Below are positions 17,350 to 24,437 of a stretch of DNA of 64,000 nt, one piece after another. Both the position numbers and the translations under genes were made by a program. The DNA is taken from contig NZ_JAUSXM010000001.1 of assembly GCF_030815985.1 (NCBI RefSeq), positions 1,736,001 to 1,800,000 of the forward strand, written 5' to 3'. This stretch comes from Paenibacillus sp. W2I17 (GTDB lineage: Bacteria > Bacillota > Bacilli > Paenibacillales > Paenibacillaceae). The notes beneath the pieces were generated by a model that saw nothing but the letters and a program-made list of their open reading frames with translations, was not told the origin of the DNA and did no database searches. The first letter of the stretch is position 1. Every line of letters begins with the position of its first letter.

Positions 17350-19317
17350 TTATTTAGCTAATGCCAGCAATTGACTAACAATATAATCAATCAATGCACT
17401 GGAAGTCATTACGTCGGTGGACCAAGATAGCGAAGAATCTACCTTTACGATCCGATCATGTTGCACAGCAGGTATGGCATTCCACACTGCATTATCAGAA
17501 GCAACGTTTCCATCTCCTAAGAAGATCATATAATCCCCAGAGTAAGCGGGTAATACTTCCATGGAGACATCGCCCCAATATTTATCTGCATCGATAATAT
17601 CCGTTTGGACTTTTGAAGGTGCCTGCAATTGAAGTTCATCGTAAACAAGCTCGCCAACGGCATGCTTGGCTCCAGCTATGTAGTTACTTTTATCACTGAA
17701 TTCTCCAACCGTAATCGTTACATCGGATAGGCCCGCATTCTGAAAAGCTAGCTTTGCTTCTTCGATTTTTCCGGTATAAGCATTCAAAACATCCTTAGCC
17801 TCTTCCTGTTTGTTCAAAACATCGCTAATAAATTGTATCCGCTCTTCTGTAGTCATATCACCATAGGGAACATAAATGGTCGGGGCAATTTTGGATAAAT
17901 CATCATACGACTCATCGCTCCAAGCCAAAATGATCAGATCAGGCTCAAGCGTCATGATATCTTCCGGCTCCATGGCTACTTTTATGGAGTCTGTAATCTG
18001 GTTAGCATAAACCGGCTCTGTCTCTCCCCGTGCAGCTCTAGCCACACCTAAAGGAGTTACACCTAGGGCTACCACATCACCAACCAAATAATCAACTACA
18101 ACTCGCTGAGGGTTGTTAGGTACCTCAACATCACCCTTAACTGTGGATATCGTTCTGGTCTGCGAGACTGCTTCTGAAGCTTTTGTCTCCGACCCTTCCT
18201 GTTGTGCCGTCTGCTGTGTCTGCGCAGGTGTTGTATTTGCCGTTCCCCCATTATTCGCTGGCGTCCCCGACGTACATGCCGTCAATAAGAGCATCATGCT
18301 TATCGCCGCCGCCAAAATCATTTCTTTACTTCTTAATGTTCCAAACATCGTTGATTCCCCATCTCTATAAGACTTGACTAGACTCGCTAGTTCCCTCTCA
18401 TCGTAAGGTAGATGAGAATCATTATCAATACCATCAACCTGCATGGATAGTGCGTTTATTTTCCGATAATCACTTGGCGTCATCTTGTAATGCTTCTTAA
18501 ACATGCGGAACAGGTTTTTCTCATCTGTGAAACCAGCTCCCGTTGCGATTTCTTTAACCGTCGCTTCTGTATGTTTCAAGTCATGACAGGCTGCTTCAAT
18601 CCTTCTCTGAATGAGATACTCCTGTAAGTTCATCCCTTCCCTTTTTTTGAACAACCGCGTCAATTGTCCACCACTGATCCCAAACATATCGGCAATTTGT
18701 TGGAACATAATCGGCTCCCTGTAATGTTTATCGAGATATATCTTGGCAGAACAGGCTGGATCTGGCTGGAGATACCGAATCTCACCACCCTCCAAATCCC
18801 TGTACACCTCATGAATCAATTGATATAGAAAACTTTTGGCCTGTAGCTGATCCATCGCCTTGCCACGTTTCCAGCCATTCATCATCCGTTGGAACCAATC
18901 GCGTAGCAAGATAGGATTACTTGGCGTATAACCAAACTGTTGAACAAATGGATTCACTTGCTCCAGTAATTGTTGCAGATGTTTCTTGAAAAAGAGAGGT
19001 GATTCTGCTCTATAAAACACCATAAAGGTCTTCACCATCTCCTCTTTAGGCGTAATACTGAGCAGGCTCCCCTTCCCGCCGTGAACTAAACCGAAGCGTT
19101 CCATTGCAAATGTGGTTTCATTCAGTTGGATTTGCGCTTCTCCCCCATATGCATAGATAAACATGCTACTAGGTATTTTATATTGCTCCAACGGGTATTG
19201 TGACGCTATATTCTGTAAGCGTACATCTATTAATGTAATGATCGAACGTGTCCAGATACTGGCCATCATATCAATCATCTCTGGTGTAAATCCCTGTCTT
19301 GCTTCTTCCTCTTGCAT
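17350..19317 (-). CDS. AraC-type regulator and siderophore-binding lipoprotein in one open frame
   Basis: One uninterrupted 655-codon frame encodes two proteins' worth of domains. Residues 1-200 are a cupin-like sensory region. Residues about 205-300 are a double AraC HTH (FQQIADMFGISGGQLTRLF ... VKEIATGAGFTDEKNLFRMF). A 30-residue linker leads to MILAAAISMMLLLTAC, a full lipoprotein signal with lipobox Cys348. Residues 390-655 are a FeuA-like periplasmic-binding domain (RVVVDYLVGDVVALGVTPLG). An internal ATG at 18348 (residue 324) has GGGGA about 8 bases upstream, so the lipoprotein may also be made alone. There is no other receptor gene in the locus. A Fur box lies upstream. B. subtilis Btr has the same domain order but no export signal between the halves. 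Confidence 0.85.
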   Translation of the reverse strand: MQEEEARQGFTPEMIDMMASIWTRSIITLIDVRLQNIASQYPLEQYKIPSSMFIYAYGGEAQIQLNETTFAMERFGLVHGGKGSLLSITPKEEMVKTFMVFYRAESPLFFKKHLQQLLEQVNPFVQQFGYTPSNPILLRDWFQRMMNGWKRGKAMDQLQAKSFLYQLIHEVYRDLEGGEIRYLQPDPACSAKIYLDKHYREPIMFQQIADMFGISGGQLTRLFKKREGMNLQEYLIQRRIEAACHDLKHTEATVKEIATGAGFTDEKNLFRMFKKHYKMTPSDYRKINALSMQVDGIDNDSHLPYDERELASLVKSYRDGESTMFGTLRSKEMILAAAISMMLLLTACTSGTPANNGGTANTTPAQTQQTAQQEGSETKASEAVSQTRTISTVKGDVEVPNNPQRVVVDYLVGDVVALGVTPLGVARAARGETEPVYANQITDSIKVAMEPEDIMTLEPDLIILAWSDESYDDLSKIAPTIYVPYGDMTTEERIQFISDVLNKQEEAKDVLNAYTGKIEEAKLAFQNAGLSDVTITVGEFSDKSNYIAGAKHAVGELVYDELQLQAPSKVQTDIIDADKYWGDVSMEVLPAYSGDYMIFLGDGNVASDNAVWNAIPAVQHDRIVKVDSSLSWSTDVMTSSALIDYIVSQLLALAK

Positions 19318-19495: not shown

Positions 19496-19534
19496 TACAA
19501 AAAAGAAGCCTGATCCATATGGATCAGGCTTCTT
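19496..19534 (-). terminator. Terminator of yidC
   Basis: A perfect 14-bp stem (AAGAAGCCTGATCC / GGATCAGGCTTCTT) with loop ATAT at 19503-19534 is followed on the minus strand by UUUUUU. Confidence 0.85.
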
Positions 19535-19604
19535 CATTATGTTTTTTGTATTCAACAAGATTACGTAGTCACCATGTTTCTCTTGTCACCTGCGACCAAA
19601 TTTA

Positions 19605-20492
19605 TTAAGACTTTGCAGGTTTCCGAGAAGGTTTGGCGGAGCTGGATTTTTTATTCTTTTTCTTACTTACTTCCACAACCACAGGCTCCTGTAGGTGTTC
19701 CACCGGGTACATTTTACGGAACAATAATGTCTGTAGTACCAGGAACGAACCCCCAACGGTCCAGTAGAGCGGCATCGCTGCCGGAGCTGTAAGAGAAAAG
19801 AATGCCATCATCAATGGGGAGAGATATCCCATGATGGCGAACTGTTTTCGCTGCTCAGGCGCCATGTTGGCTTGTGATACCTTGGCTTGAATCAGATATA
19901 TGACCGCAACCACCACAGCGAGTACGTAGTCCGGCGCTCCCAGTTTGAACCACAGGAACGAGTGGGAGGACAACTCCGGTGTAAGTCGGATGGCTGTGTA
20001 AATACCTGAAAGTATAGGCAACTGAATGAGCATCGGCAAGCAACCAATGTTCAGCGGATTGAACTTATGTTTCTTGTATAGCTCCATCGTTTCCTGAGAC
20101 AGCTTTTGCTTATCAGCAGGATCATTTTTGCCTTCATATTTTTTCTTGAGCGCATCCATCTCGGGTTTCATGGCGTTCATGATGACTCGTGTTCCCTGCT
20201 GGGACTTGGCTTGACGCATCATCAAGGGCAACAGTGCTAAACGAATGACCAGCGTAATAACAATAATCGCGACCCCGTAGCTTCCGTTAAATATCGTGGC
20301 AATATGCTGAATCAGATACGACAGTGGAAATACAATGTAGTGATTAAAAAATCCCGGTGTCGATGAAGTAATCTCAGACACGTTGTTGCTGCATCCGGCA
20401 AGCAGCATGACTGCAAACAAAATGGCAATCAGGCCATAGATCCGTCCCTTGCCCGAAGTAAAAGTGAATCCCTTGTTAGTCTTATGTTCCAT
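19605..20492 (-). CDS. yidC: YidC/Oxa1 membrane protein insertase
   Basis: This lipoprotein-type insertase has 295 residues. It has a signal with lipobox VMLLAGC near residue 35, the first core segment containing the conserved Arg in VITLVIRLALLPL, a charged hairpin (MRQAKSQQ ... NAMKPEMDALKKKYEGK), and the later block NIGCLPMLIQLPILSGIY. The tail is rich in Lys/Ser (KKKNKKSSSAKPSRKPAKS). The ATG at 20492 follows AGGAGG by 6 bases; the frame's earlier codons overlap the leader. The AGGAGG lies inside a hairpin (20501-20536) and within an overlapping upstream ORF, so expression is probably regulated at translation. Confidence 0.92.
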   Translation of the reverse strand: MEHKTNKGFTFTSGKGRIYGLIAILFAVMLLAGCSNNVSEITSSTPGFFNHYIVFPLSYLIQHIATIFNGSYGVAIIVITLVIRLALLPLMMRQAKSQQGTRVIMNAMKPEMDALKKKYEGKNDPADKQKLSQETMELYKKHKFNPLNIGCLPMLIQLPILSGIYTAIRLTPELSSHSFLWFKLGAPDYVLAVVVAVIYLIQAKVSQANMAPEQRKQFAIMGYLSPLMMAFFSLTAPAAMPLYWTVGGSFLVLQTLLFRKMYPVEHLQEPVVVEVSKKKNKKSSSAKPSRKPAKS

Positions 20493-20779
20493 ATATATCC
20501 TCCTCGTTGATTTGTTGACCAATCGTTCAACGAGGAATGACAATCTGGTTCATCTTCATCGGGCGCTTCTCTTCGTCTAATCATGCGACTCCAGTCTTCC
20601 TGTCTATGCTGTCTGTCCAAACACAAGGCGGGAAGTACAGGTTCAAGTCCACCACCGGCGCCACCTTCCATCCAGTACTCTGTCATGCCACAATGAAGAT
20701 GGGCAATATAGGCATAACTGACGGTGAAGATGAGTCCAATCGAGAATAAATATGGTAATAACTCCTGCAGTTCAAACAA
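20429..20779 (-). CDS. Leader ORF overlapping yidC; MifM-like arrest-peptide candidate
   Basis: The ORF has 116 codons from TTG at 20779, which follows AAAGGGGG by about 8 bases. Residues 8-26 are a hydrophobic segment (LPYLFSIGLIFTVSYAYIA). After a glycine-rich stretch (EGGAGGGLEP) come R59-x3-W63, a basic run (MIRRR) and the acidic cluster D74-E75-D76-E77. The frame then crosses the hairpin that hides the yidC ribosome-binding site and stops 63 bases inside yidC. In B. subtilis, MifM is a membrane-anchored leader that stalls ribosomes at an acidic run when YidC activity is low and so opens the yidC2 site. Architecture and position match; sequence homology is untested. Confidence 0.6.
   Translation of the reverse strand: MFELQELLPYLFSIGLIFTVSYAYIAHLHCGMTEYWMEGGAGGGLEPVLPALCLDRQHRQEDWSRMIRRREAPDEDEPDCHSSLNDWSTNQRGGYIWNIRLTRDSLLLRARDGSMA
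20501..20536 (-). promoter_or_regulatory. Hairpin sequestering the yidC ribosome-binding site
   Basis: On the minus strand UCCUCGUUGA (20536-20527) pairs perfectly with UCAACGAGGA (20510-20501) over 10 bp, with a 16-base loop and a further G-U pair. The 3' arm includes most of AGGAGG (20504-20499), the yidC ribosome-binding site. The 5' arm begins about 14-23 bases downstream of the leader's acidic codons (20560-20549). That is where a ribosome paused there would prevent pairing. Confidence 0.7.
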
Positions 20780-20871
20780 GGGATTCACCCCCTTTATAGG
20801 TTAGTTTTTATATTATAACACTTACATATTGTTTTTGCATAAATCCGTACGTGAAAACAACTACTATTCAG

Positions 20872-22625: not shown

Positions 22626-24437
22626 TTGAAATTACATCAGCAATATCTGCTGTTACATCGTCATTACGGTCACCATACAGAACATGAACTTACACTCGCC
22701 GATCTCGCGGAGTTGCTAAATTGTACACACCGCAATACGTTAACGATTGTCAAAAAGATGGTTGCCCATGACTGGATTAGCTGGGTTTCCCAGCGTGGTC
22801 GTGGTCGACGTTCTTCACTGACTTTGCTTGTTCCGGCTGATCAAATCGCCGCAGAATATATGATGCAGGCCATGAATCGCCGGGAGTTACAGGAAGCTGC
22901 CGAGCAGGTGAGCGCATTCTCCAGTTCAACAATCATGCAGGATCATCTAAACCAGTGGTTGCTAGGGTATTCAGGACATCATACGGAAGCCGGCACCAAT
23001 AATGAGCAGATTGATACGCTTCGGTTGCCCCTGCGCCAACAGCTTCATGCGCTTGATCCGCTGTACATTAATCTATTAGCTGAATCCTTTGTTACCAGCC
23101 ATGTCTTTGACGGGTTGGTTCAGCGGGGTGAACAGGGAGAGATCCTCCCATGTCTCGCTCATACCTGGGATGTCAGTGCAGACCGAAAGACCTGGATCTT
23201 CTATTTACGAAAAGGTATTACATTTCACGATGGTCAGTTGTTGACGGCCCATGATATAGTGCATACGTTTGAACGACTGCAATCTACAGATCGCCGAACA
23301 CTGTACCGTGATGTAAGTAAACAGATTCTATCTATTGAAGCGGTCGATTCCTTAACCGTGTGTTTCCAGCTTAAAAATCCTCATGAATTGTTTTTGTCCT
23401 TCCTGACAACAAGTCGTGCGGCGATTGTACCCTCACCAGGAACAAACGAACATAAGATGAAGCATTCGAGTGATTTGCATGGGATGCAAAAACCTGTTGG
23501 GACGGGACCGTTCAAGGTCACCGCCTGGGATGATCACTTGTGCAGACTTGAAGCCTTTTCATCATATTTTCAAGGTAGAGCACACATGGACCGGGTAGAT
23601 ATCCTGCAAATTCCGTGGAGTGCCTCGGCAAAAATGGACGATAGCCAAGATATCGAAACTCCGTTCTTTCATCTTGTTCATAATCCGTCTTCGTCTGCGG
23701 GTGCAGAATGGACACAGATTAGTGCAGGTGTAATGGTTCATAAATTACTCACGTGTAATACACAAAAAACCGGACCGTTAAACGATCCGGAAGTAAGAGC
23801 ACACCTTCAGTCATGCCTTGCTGGAATGTATAGAGATGACGGACATGCAGATGACTCTGAAGTCGTGGAGACTGATTTTAGTGCGGTGAATACCGGGATG
23901 GTTGACCCGGAGGGATTTAGAGATATTACTAAACGACTTACTTCGTCTACTCCCATCTCACTGCAAATTGCGACCATCCCACAGTATCGCAGGGATGCCC
24001 AACATCTGGCGTCCATACTGGAGCAGTGCGGTTTCTCCTGTACCGTCCGAACCGCTACGATGGAGCAGTTCAAAGGAAATCTCCGGCTGGAGTCTGATCT
24101 GATTCTCTTCTCTCTCATTCGGGACAGGGATGAAGAACTGCGAAGGTATGATCTCTACTCTACATTATCTGAGCATCTGGAAGATTCTACTCGTATAACG
24201 ATCCATGAGATCTTGCAAACCATCGTCGCCTCTCCCATCGCAGCAGATCGAACTTCTGATTTAGATCGAATTGAACAATTTTTGGTTGATCAGAATTTAC
24301 TATTCCATTTATCCGAAAAACCAGTAGAAACCGCTTATCTGCCTTCGGTACGTGGTCTATCTTTCAACAGCCAGGGCTGGATTAACCTGCGTCATATCTG
24401 GTTTCCTTCTGACGCACTAGCACGTCAGTTTGATTAG
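22626..24437 (+). CDS. SgrR-like regulator: HTH plus extracellular solute-binding domain
   Basis: The 603-residue protein starts with a winged-helix-like domain (HELTLADLAELLNCTHRNTLTIVKKM ... ISWVSQRGRGRRSSLTL). Residues about 165-600 resemble family 5 (oligopeptide/nickel) binding proteins: LAHTWDVSADRKTWIFYLRKGITFHDGQLLTAHDIVHTFERL. There is no signal peptide, so the binding domain acts in the cytoplasm as in SgrR. The start is TTG, 10 bases after AGGAGG. Such regulators often adjoin an MFS exporter; here the neighbour is a DUF4173 gene on the other strand, a possible target. Confidence 0.85.
   Translation: MKLHQQYLLLHRHYGHHTEHELTLADLAELLNCTHRNTLTIVKKMVAHDWISWVSQRGRGRRSSLTLLVPADQIAAEYMMQAMNRRELQEAAEQVSAFSSSTIMQDHLNQWLLGYSGHHTEAGTNNEQIDTLRLPLRQQLHALDPLYINLLAESFVTSHVFDGLVQRGEQGEILPCLAHTWDVSADRKTWIFYLRKGITFHDGQLLTAHDIVHTFERLQSTDRRTLYRDVSKQILSIEAVDSLTVCFQLKNPHELFLSFLTTSRAAIVPSPGTNEHKMKHSSDLHGMQKPVGTGPFKVTAWDDHLCRLEAFSSYFQGRAHMDRVDILQIPWSASAKMDDSQDIETPFFHLVHNPSSSAGAEWTQISAGVMVHKLLTCNTQKTGPLNDPEVRAHLQSCLAGMYRDDGHADDSEVVETDFSAVNTGMVDPEGFRDITKRLTSSTPISLQIATIPQYRRDAQHLASILEQCGFSCTVRTATMEQFKGNLRLESDLILFSLIRDRDEELRRYDLYSTLSEHLEDSTRITIHEILQTIVASPIAADRTSDLDRIEQFLVDQNLLFHLSEKPVETAYLPSVRGLSFNSQGWINLRHIWFPSDALARQFD

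Follow-up and report, generated by a model that had tools for sequence, protein, structure and literature searches.

A probable MifM-type arrest leader, putatively sensing YidC insertion capacity, overlaps yidC in Paenibacillus

Paenibacillus sp. W2I17 has a 7.0 Mb genome in one contig that encodes two YidC proteins, 31% identical to each other. One is flanked by ORFs that read as RnpA and Jag (names judged from the translations), which we take to be the context of B. subtilis SpoIIIJ. The other is encoded in the stretch of 64,000 nucleotides analysed here (the window; positions 1,736,001 to 1,800,000 of contig NZ_JAUSXM010000001.1) and is preceded by an ORF that runs into it. What does this upstream ORF do? 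Our results argue for a model in which it is the Paenibacillaceae version of MifM, an arrest switch that would sense YidC insertion capacity and induce yidC, and we consider this model very probable. The sequence-only reading of the locus had proposed that yidC is preceded by a MifM-like arrest-peptide switch, and tests at the level of sequence (conservation of leader and core, hairpin covariation, co-occurrence, homology and spacing) support that proposal. The locus contains the following features, from the promoter to the end of yidC.

20812..20820, minus strand: probable −10 promoter element of the extended type, TGTTATAAT, of the leader–yidC transcript (pattern only)
20788..20795, minus strand: leader ribosome-binding site, AAAGGGGG (sequence)
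20429..20779, minus strand: leader ORF of 116 codons plus stop, starting with TTG; a MifM homologue (sequence reading, conservation, profile and BLASTP homology)
20696..20761, minus strand: N-terminal membrane segment, about residues 7–28 (hydropathy; dN/dS 0.03 over codons 10–28)
20540..20587, minus strand: putative arrest core, codons 65–80, RMIRRREAPDEDEPDC (P73 and D74 in 112/112 leaders, C80 in 108/112)
20534..20548, minus strand: predicted P-site codons 78–82 of the stalled ribosome (alignment to MifM D89–S92, two registers)
20527..20536, minus strand: hairpin 5′ arm, TCCTCGTTGA (fold, covariation)
20501..20510, minus strand: hairpin 3′ arm, TCAACGAGGA, holding 4 of the 6 Shine–Dalgarno (SD) bases (fold, covariation)
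20499..20504, minus strand: yidC SD, AGGAGG (sequence)
20429..20539, minus strand: leader tail from codon 81 to the stop codon, open through the hairpin and extending 64 nt into yidC (dN/dS 1.05 and 1.78)
19605..20492, minus strand: yidC, a YidC2-type membrane insertase of 295 aa, ATG start at 20492 (PF02096, E 9.5e-45)
19502..19535, minus strand: intrinsic-terminator-like stem-loop after yidC (consensus match, 15 pairs)

The upstream ORF had been described as 116 codons with its own ribosome-binding site and a membrane segment, overlapping yidC, and this description holds: it starts at the TTG at 20779 behind AAAGGGGG, is hydrophobic from residue 7 and ends with a stop codon at 20429–20431, 64 nt inside yidC. 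An in-frame GTG at 20788, three codons 5′ of the TTG, falls inside the ribosome-binding site. Start codons in related loci were chosen by an SD rule and are putative; purine runs like the one here precede most of them, an observation that is partly circular because the rule picked the starts. By these picks TTG is the start in 72 of 73 genus loci (the remaining one, L048, has a mis-set start) and in 29 of 40 others, and this weak start is perhaps deliberately kept. The hydrophobic stretch, assigned by hydropathy only, has a best 19-residue window with a mean Kyte–Doolittle value of 1.69, and 96 of 112 leaders reach a best-window mean of 1.6 or more. Leader and yidC lie 92 nt behind a DUF4153 gene, and the terminator-like stem-loop (19535–19502) comes after yidC. 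The pair probably forms its own transcript, because an extended −10 element lies upstream, its TATAAT 38 nt 5′ of the leader start, and 77 of 113 loci likewise have TATAAT in the 110 nt before the leader (a pattern match only); a promoter scan of the region did not report this element. The leader matched no Pfam or NCBIfam family up to E 1 and gave a single chance match to PDB sequences (E 1.1), and Rfam returned nothing at gathering thresholds on 20380–20860. Elsewhere in the window, translations show a 655-aa ORF (17350–19317, minus strand) resembling an AraC-type regulator fused to a substrate-binding protein, and a 603-aa ORF (22626–24437, plus strand) resembling an SgrR-type regulator with a solute-binding domain.

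The leader co-occurs with this type of yidC. Its protein is present in 73 of 75 genomes of the genus (one of them, G043, has an in-frame TGA), and at each of the 73 genus loci its frame immediately precedes and overlaps the same second yidC. The two genus genomes that lack the leader also lack this yidC and have a single YidC match, 32–36% identical. Outside the genus, 40 loci from 10 other genera in the same family were read, and all 40 carry a leader with the core [KR]..[AS]PD[DEG][DE] before yidC. A family-wide scan with profile A4, described below, found the leader in 221 of 394 genomes, including every genome with a strong match to this yidC (217/217; both hand-counted), where "strong" means an E-value no worse than 5e-60, a threshold chosen once the table had been seen and falling in its gap from 4.9e-60 to 3.8e-50. 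Adjacency was read in 113 loci, and a handful opened later, of the 221 leader-positive genomes. Four leader-positive genomes lack a strong yidC match (G181, G201, G210 and G219), and in both of those opened (G201 and G219) yidC2 is frameshifted. At least 12 family genomes carry two or three weaker YidC matches and no leader (G184, G208, G218, G262, G264, G269, G273, G274, G285, G286, G287 and G393). A scan of named records kept 80 loci, titled Paenibacillus (72), Saccharibacillus (6) and "Bacillus sp." (2); the closest, 99% over the leader, were from Paenibacillus sp. and P. xylanexedens. All of these loci share descent, and counts across them are not independent. L048, the G043 locus, was excluded from the residue counts and from the dN/dS, hydropathy, spacer and BLASTP sets; its DNA was included in the hairpin-fold, TATAAT, stop-position, start-codon and open-frame counts.

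Some loci depart from this arrangement. In L294 (G201), L295 (G219) and L296 (G242), yidC2 is split over two frames behind a readable leader, which could reflect decay or an assembly error. In L141 (G485) the leader core joins the yidC body directly, and the usual stretch with SD and start is missing by comparison with L139 (G669); the switch seems to have been lost naturally here.

The leader is under selection as a protein, but only in part. Across 47 close relatives, dN/dS was 0.05 over codons 2–9, 0.03 over 10–28, 0.13 over 29–58, 0.12 over 59–67 and 0.07 over 68–80, against 1.05 over codons 81–95 (hairpin and SD) and 1.78 over 96–116 (yidC overlap). Protein-level selection thus spans residues 2–80 and ends at about Cys80, where the hairpin begins. 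As had been noted from the sequence, the ORF continues beyond the hairpin into yidC, and its codons from 81 on are not selected as protein; we rejected the tail as a functional peptide, its dN/dS being about 1 or above. This boundary bears on the idea that the leader is a small membrane protein with a function of its own, such as a YidC partner, that merely shares the operon. Strong purifying selection on the N-terminus and membrane segment would suit such a protein, as would co-occurrence with this type of yidC, but selection that ends with residue 80, immediately ahead of the hairpin, a free tail and a total length ranging from 82 to about 166 codons (script-read) would not, and the persistence of the leader beside a frameshifted yidC2 in three genomes fits recent decay or assembly error better than a partner role. 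We regard an independent function as very improbable. For the arrest model, the switch from protein- to RNA-level selection within a few codons leads to a testable prediction of the stall site.

Conservation within the selected peptide defines a core, RRxxxPD[DEG]D..DC. P73 and D74 are invariant in 112 of 112 leaders, with all four Pro codons used at P73, and are followed by C80 (108 leaders), D76 (107), R69 (104), R65 (103) and D79 (99). The minimum five-residue charge is −0.8, at residues 73–77; the Fujiwara acidic-run criterion for MifM is a minimum below −0.3 between residues 70 and 100 (PMC10987492). The Cys at codon 80 (20542–20540) follows the acidic core, uses both codons across the 108 leaders that have it, and has no counterpart at that position in 11 aligned MifM sequences. 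R59-x3-W63, a basic run and DEDE had been singled out from the sequence, and all are present in the window leader (the latter two as RRR68–70 and DEDE74–77), but R59-x3-W63 was rejected as an arrest signature, with R59 in 45 and W63 in 22 of the 72 genus leaders scored. A large hydrophobic residue occupies position 63 in 69 of the same 72, and over all 112 leaders the position holds L in 80, W in 22, I in 5, F in 2, R in 2 and G in the remaining one; Trp63 is one choice among large hydrophobic residues. This natural variation indicates that an acidic-type arrest core can lose its Trp while keeping P73, D74, D76, D79 and C80.

Directly behind the core, TCCTCGTTGA (20536–20527) pairs with TCAACGAGGA (20510–20501) over a perfect 10 bp, covering 4 of the 6 bases of AGGAGG. 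On a single sequence this fold beats shuffles only slightly (131 nt: z −1.67, with 10/200 shuffles equally good; 391 nt: z −2.34, with 2/100), which is insufficient alone. Comparative evidence removes the doubt, because the leader is present in 73 of 75 genus genomes and the hairpin covaries in 59 sequences. Folding was predicted for 87 distinct sequences. All 87 have 3 or more of the 6 SD bases paired, in a pairing that begins 20–30 nt downstream of the first P73-codon base. All 87 also pair 9 or more bases of a 14-base stretch around the SD, a level that 31% of shuffles attain, and their mean fold energy is −22.6 kcal/mol against −13.4 in shuffles retaining the SD; this second test takes the arms from each sequence's own fold, which favours pairing, a bias from which the covariation test is free. 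For the latter, 86 distinct sequences were reduced to 59 by removing 27 as near-identical and aligned with MAFFT. The ten hairpin pairs are formed in 90.5% of cases versus 80.2% in shuffles; both sides change in 8 of the 10 pairs (4.3 in shuffles) and in 58 cells (15.1 ± 3.7 in shuffles). The covariation score of 0.319 compares with 0.137 ± 0.011 in shuffles (0/500) and at most 0.109 for slid pairings, and RNAalifold unaided predicts nine of the ten pairs. The earlier description of a perfect 10-bp hairpin hiding most of the yidC SD is thus confirmed, with arms that covary.

The leader stop lies inside yidC at +31 to +163 in 111 of 113 loci and at −21 and −36 in the other two. Among 82 distinct loci, 80 keep the leader frame open up to the yidC ATG, where shuffled loops would give 62.9, an excess that is suggestive only, because the loci are related by descent; the two closed loci are the only two in which leader and yidC share a frame. 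The overlap is usual but not needed, since 8 of 9 leaders in genus g8 of the same family stop soon after the core, before the yidC start (L146 runs on). It may be passive, or it may give moving ribosomes a way to influence the yidC start. Because the ORF does not stop near the hairpin, non-arrested ribosomes would also open it, and this leaves room for plain translational coupling without arrest, in which any ribosome translating the leader melts the hairpin and leader translation sets yidC output. Frames that stay open across the hairpin to the ATG in so many loci speak for such coupling. Yet coupling needs no particular residues, and here codons 68–80 evolve at a dN/dS of 0.07, four Pro codons encode an invariant P73 and the core is held at a narrow distance from the hairpin; the leader is also homologous to MifM, a proven arrest peptide. 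Given this homology and the selected core, we find coupling alone improbable. In a version of the MifM model specific to Paenibacillaceae, which strikes us as rather unlikely, the frame is kept open over the hairpin and the yidC start although its amino acids there are free, so that non-arrested ribosomes "sweep" across the yidC SD and start codon and clear or occlude initiation; passing ribosomes and the hairpin would together hold yidC off, and the arrest core would have been re-engineered to RRxxxPD[DEG]D..DC.

The kinship with MifM was assessed with MifM sequences recovered for this purpose. A pattern from the published motif matched 2 of 80 genomes of another Bacilli family, and the MifM recovered (P0002) is a 95-codon ORF with R69, I70, W73, I74, M80, N81 and D86EED89, exactly as published; the first six of these residues are reported to be important for stalling (PMC4423224). 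A relative occurs in 44 of those 80 genomes, and the label "Bacillus" or "B. subtilis-type" for loci L228–L259 rests on the agreement of P0002 with the published residues and length. Profile A2, built from 33 of the 113 leaders, found matches in 35 of 398 genomes of the class, of which 8 belong to other families; 7 of these 8 loci have a YidC-like ORF directly downstream and the eighth (L144) shows only its start. Profile A4 combines 18 A2 rows with two genus g8 leaders and six of the eight outside-family leaders. Aligned by hhalign to 11 MifM sequences, it scored 24.0 (P 3.4e-4) against 9.8 ± 2.0 for shuffled columns, a score that none of 300 column shuffles and none of 300 block shuffles reached. 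When 96 distinct leaders were compared with the 11 MifM sequences by BLASTP, 45 had E<0.01 versus 8 of 960 shuffled leaders, and 19 had E<0.001 versus 1 of 960; the window leader itself reached E 8e-5. Direct comparison of A2 with the MifM profile A3 was weak (P 0.0016, probability 16%), and an A4 search of the class genomes did not recover MifM, for example in G406, which carries it. That search also matched G707 (6e-5), G659 (1.8e-4) and G443 (1.4e-11), and its matches at E 0.0018 and above, many with internal stops, look like chance. On the strength of the A4 and BLASTP comparisons, we conclude that the leader is a diverged homologue of MifM.

Two alignments place the stall. BLASTP puts R59, W63, P73 and D79 of the window leader on R69, W73, P83 and D89 of MifM, and the family profile, one residue off, puts residue 63 on Ile74 and P78 on D89. 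The relatives L101 and L109 carry RIxxWL, like RIxxWI in MifM, which fits the family-profile register. The MifM stalling residues R69, I70, W73, M80 and N81 are not strictly conserved in the leaders. As MifM stalls at residues 89–92 (PMC4423224, PMC6037786), these registers predict a stall at about codons 78–82. A pause at DEDE that would cover the 5′ arm had been suggested; the acidic core does precede the arm, but the predicted stall falls just after DEDE rather than on it, because the best-conserved core residues are R65, R69, P73, D74, D76, D79 and C80. The geometry is close to that of MifM. The SD-pairing arm starts 12 nt after the first base of P78, or 9 nt after that of D79, and in 27 distinct MifM loci it starts 11–12 nt after the first base of D89. 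The spacer between membrane segment and predicted stall has a median of 53 residues (range 49–60), where the same method gives 59 for P0002 and the published MifM median is 54 (PMC10987492).

From the gene order, selection, hairpin, homology and spacing we infer the following course of arrest, YidC-driven release and yidC induction. The leader would be translated from its own ribosome-binding site and, by homology, its N-terminal segment would be inserted into the membrane by YidC. If insertion is slow, the nascent chain, with its basic run followed by PD[DEG]D..DC, would stall the ribosome with about codons 78–82 in the P site. A ribosome there would cover the hairpin 5′ arm, as the geometry indicates, leaving the yidC SD free and allowing yidC to be translated. 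Fast insertion would pull on the chain and end the stall, the hairpin would re-form and yidC expression would stay low. The other YidC, in its RnpA/Jag context, may be the constitutive insertase whose failure is sensed, a role suggested by B. subtilis SpoIIIJ. An arrest leader controlling yidC2 might instead respond to another signal, such as SecDF or membrane state: its core differs from that of B. subtilis MifM in the invariant P73–D74 and near-invariant C80, and the release signal could differ as well. We think this extremely improbable, as a short, narrow spacer (49–60) is a reported trait of leaders that monitor YidC and not Sec (PMC10987492).

Among known systems, the leader most closely resembles B. 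subtilis MifM–YidC2 (YqjG), with which it shares its position upstream of a second yidC, a hydrophobic N-terminus, an SD-sequestering hairpin, an acidic run near codons 74–89, equal spacing from stall codon to arm and detectable sequence homology. They differ in that MifM has 95 codons and stops within the 5′ side of the hairpin, whereas the Paenibacillus leader continues through the hairpin and ends 64 nt inside yidC, and in that R69, I70, W73, M80 and N81 of MifM are not strictly kept here, whereas P73–D74 and C80 are, behind a TTG start. CliM of Clostridia, which we take to be the earlier uC_KYxIW, is likewise a YidC-monitoring yidC2 leader with a transmembrane segment, arrest and an SD stem-loop (PMC13183943, PMC10987492). 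Its conserved K-Y-x-I-W motif is absent from our leader, and identity with CliM was rejected. ApcA of Actinobacteria precedes a presumed secondary yidC and has an N-terminal transmembrane segment (PMC7897499) but arrests through R-A-P-G (PMC10987492). The leader has no R-A-P-G or R-A-P-P-like motif, the closest being REAPD at 70–74 with no Arg before the Ala, and an ApcA/RAPP-type identity was also rejected. SecM–SecA and VemP–SecDF2 follow the same monitoring-substrate logic, with localization-released arrest opening a downstream SD (PMC10987492, PMC7897499), but they monitor Sec with unrelated arrest sequences, and the VemP spacer is much longer, with a median of 133 (PMC10987492).

MifM homologues from 592 Firmicutes genomes are already in a published list, with an MMseqs2 MifM cluster of 572 sequences (PMC10987492); "Paenibacillus" does not appear in that paper's main text, and among the open-licence papers searched no title or abstract opening reports this Paenibacillus leader. 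The present work would extend a well-studied force-sensing switch from Bacillus to a whole neighbouring family, in 221 of 394 genomes, through a leader that Pfam and NCBIfam models do not match. It would be the known MifM switch with an altered arrest core and an overlapping architecture.
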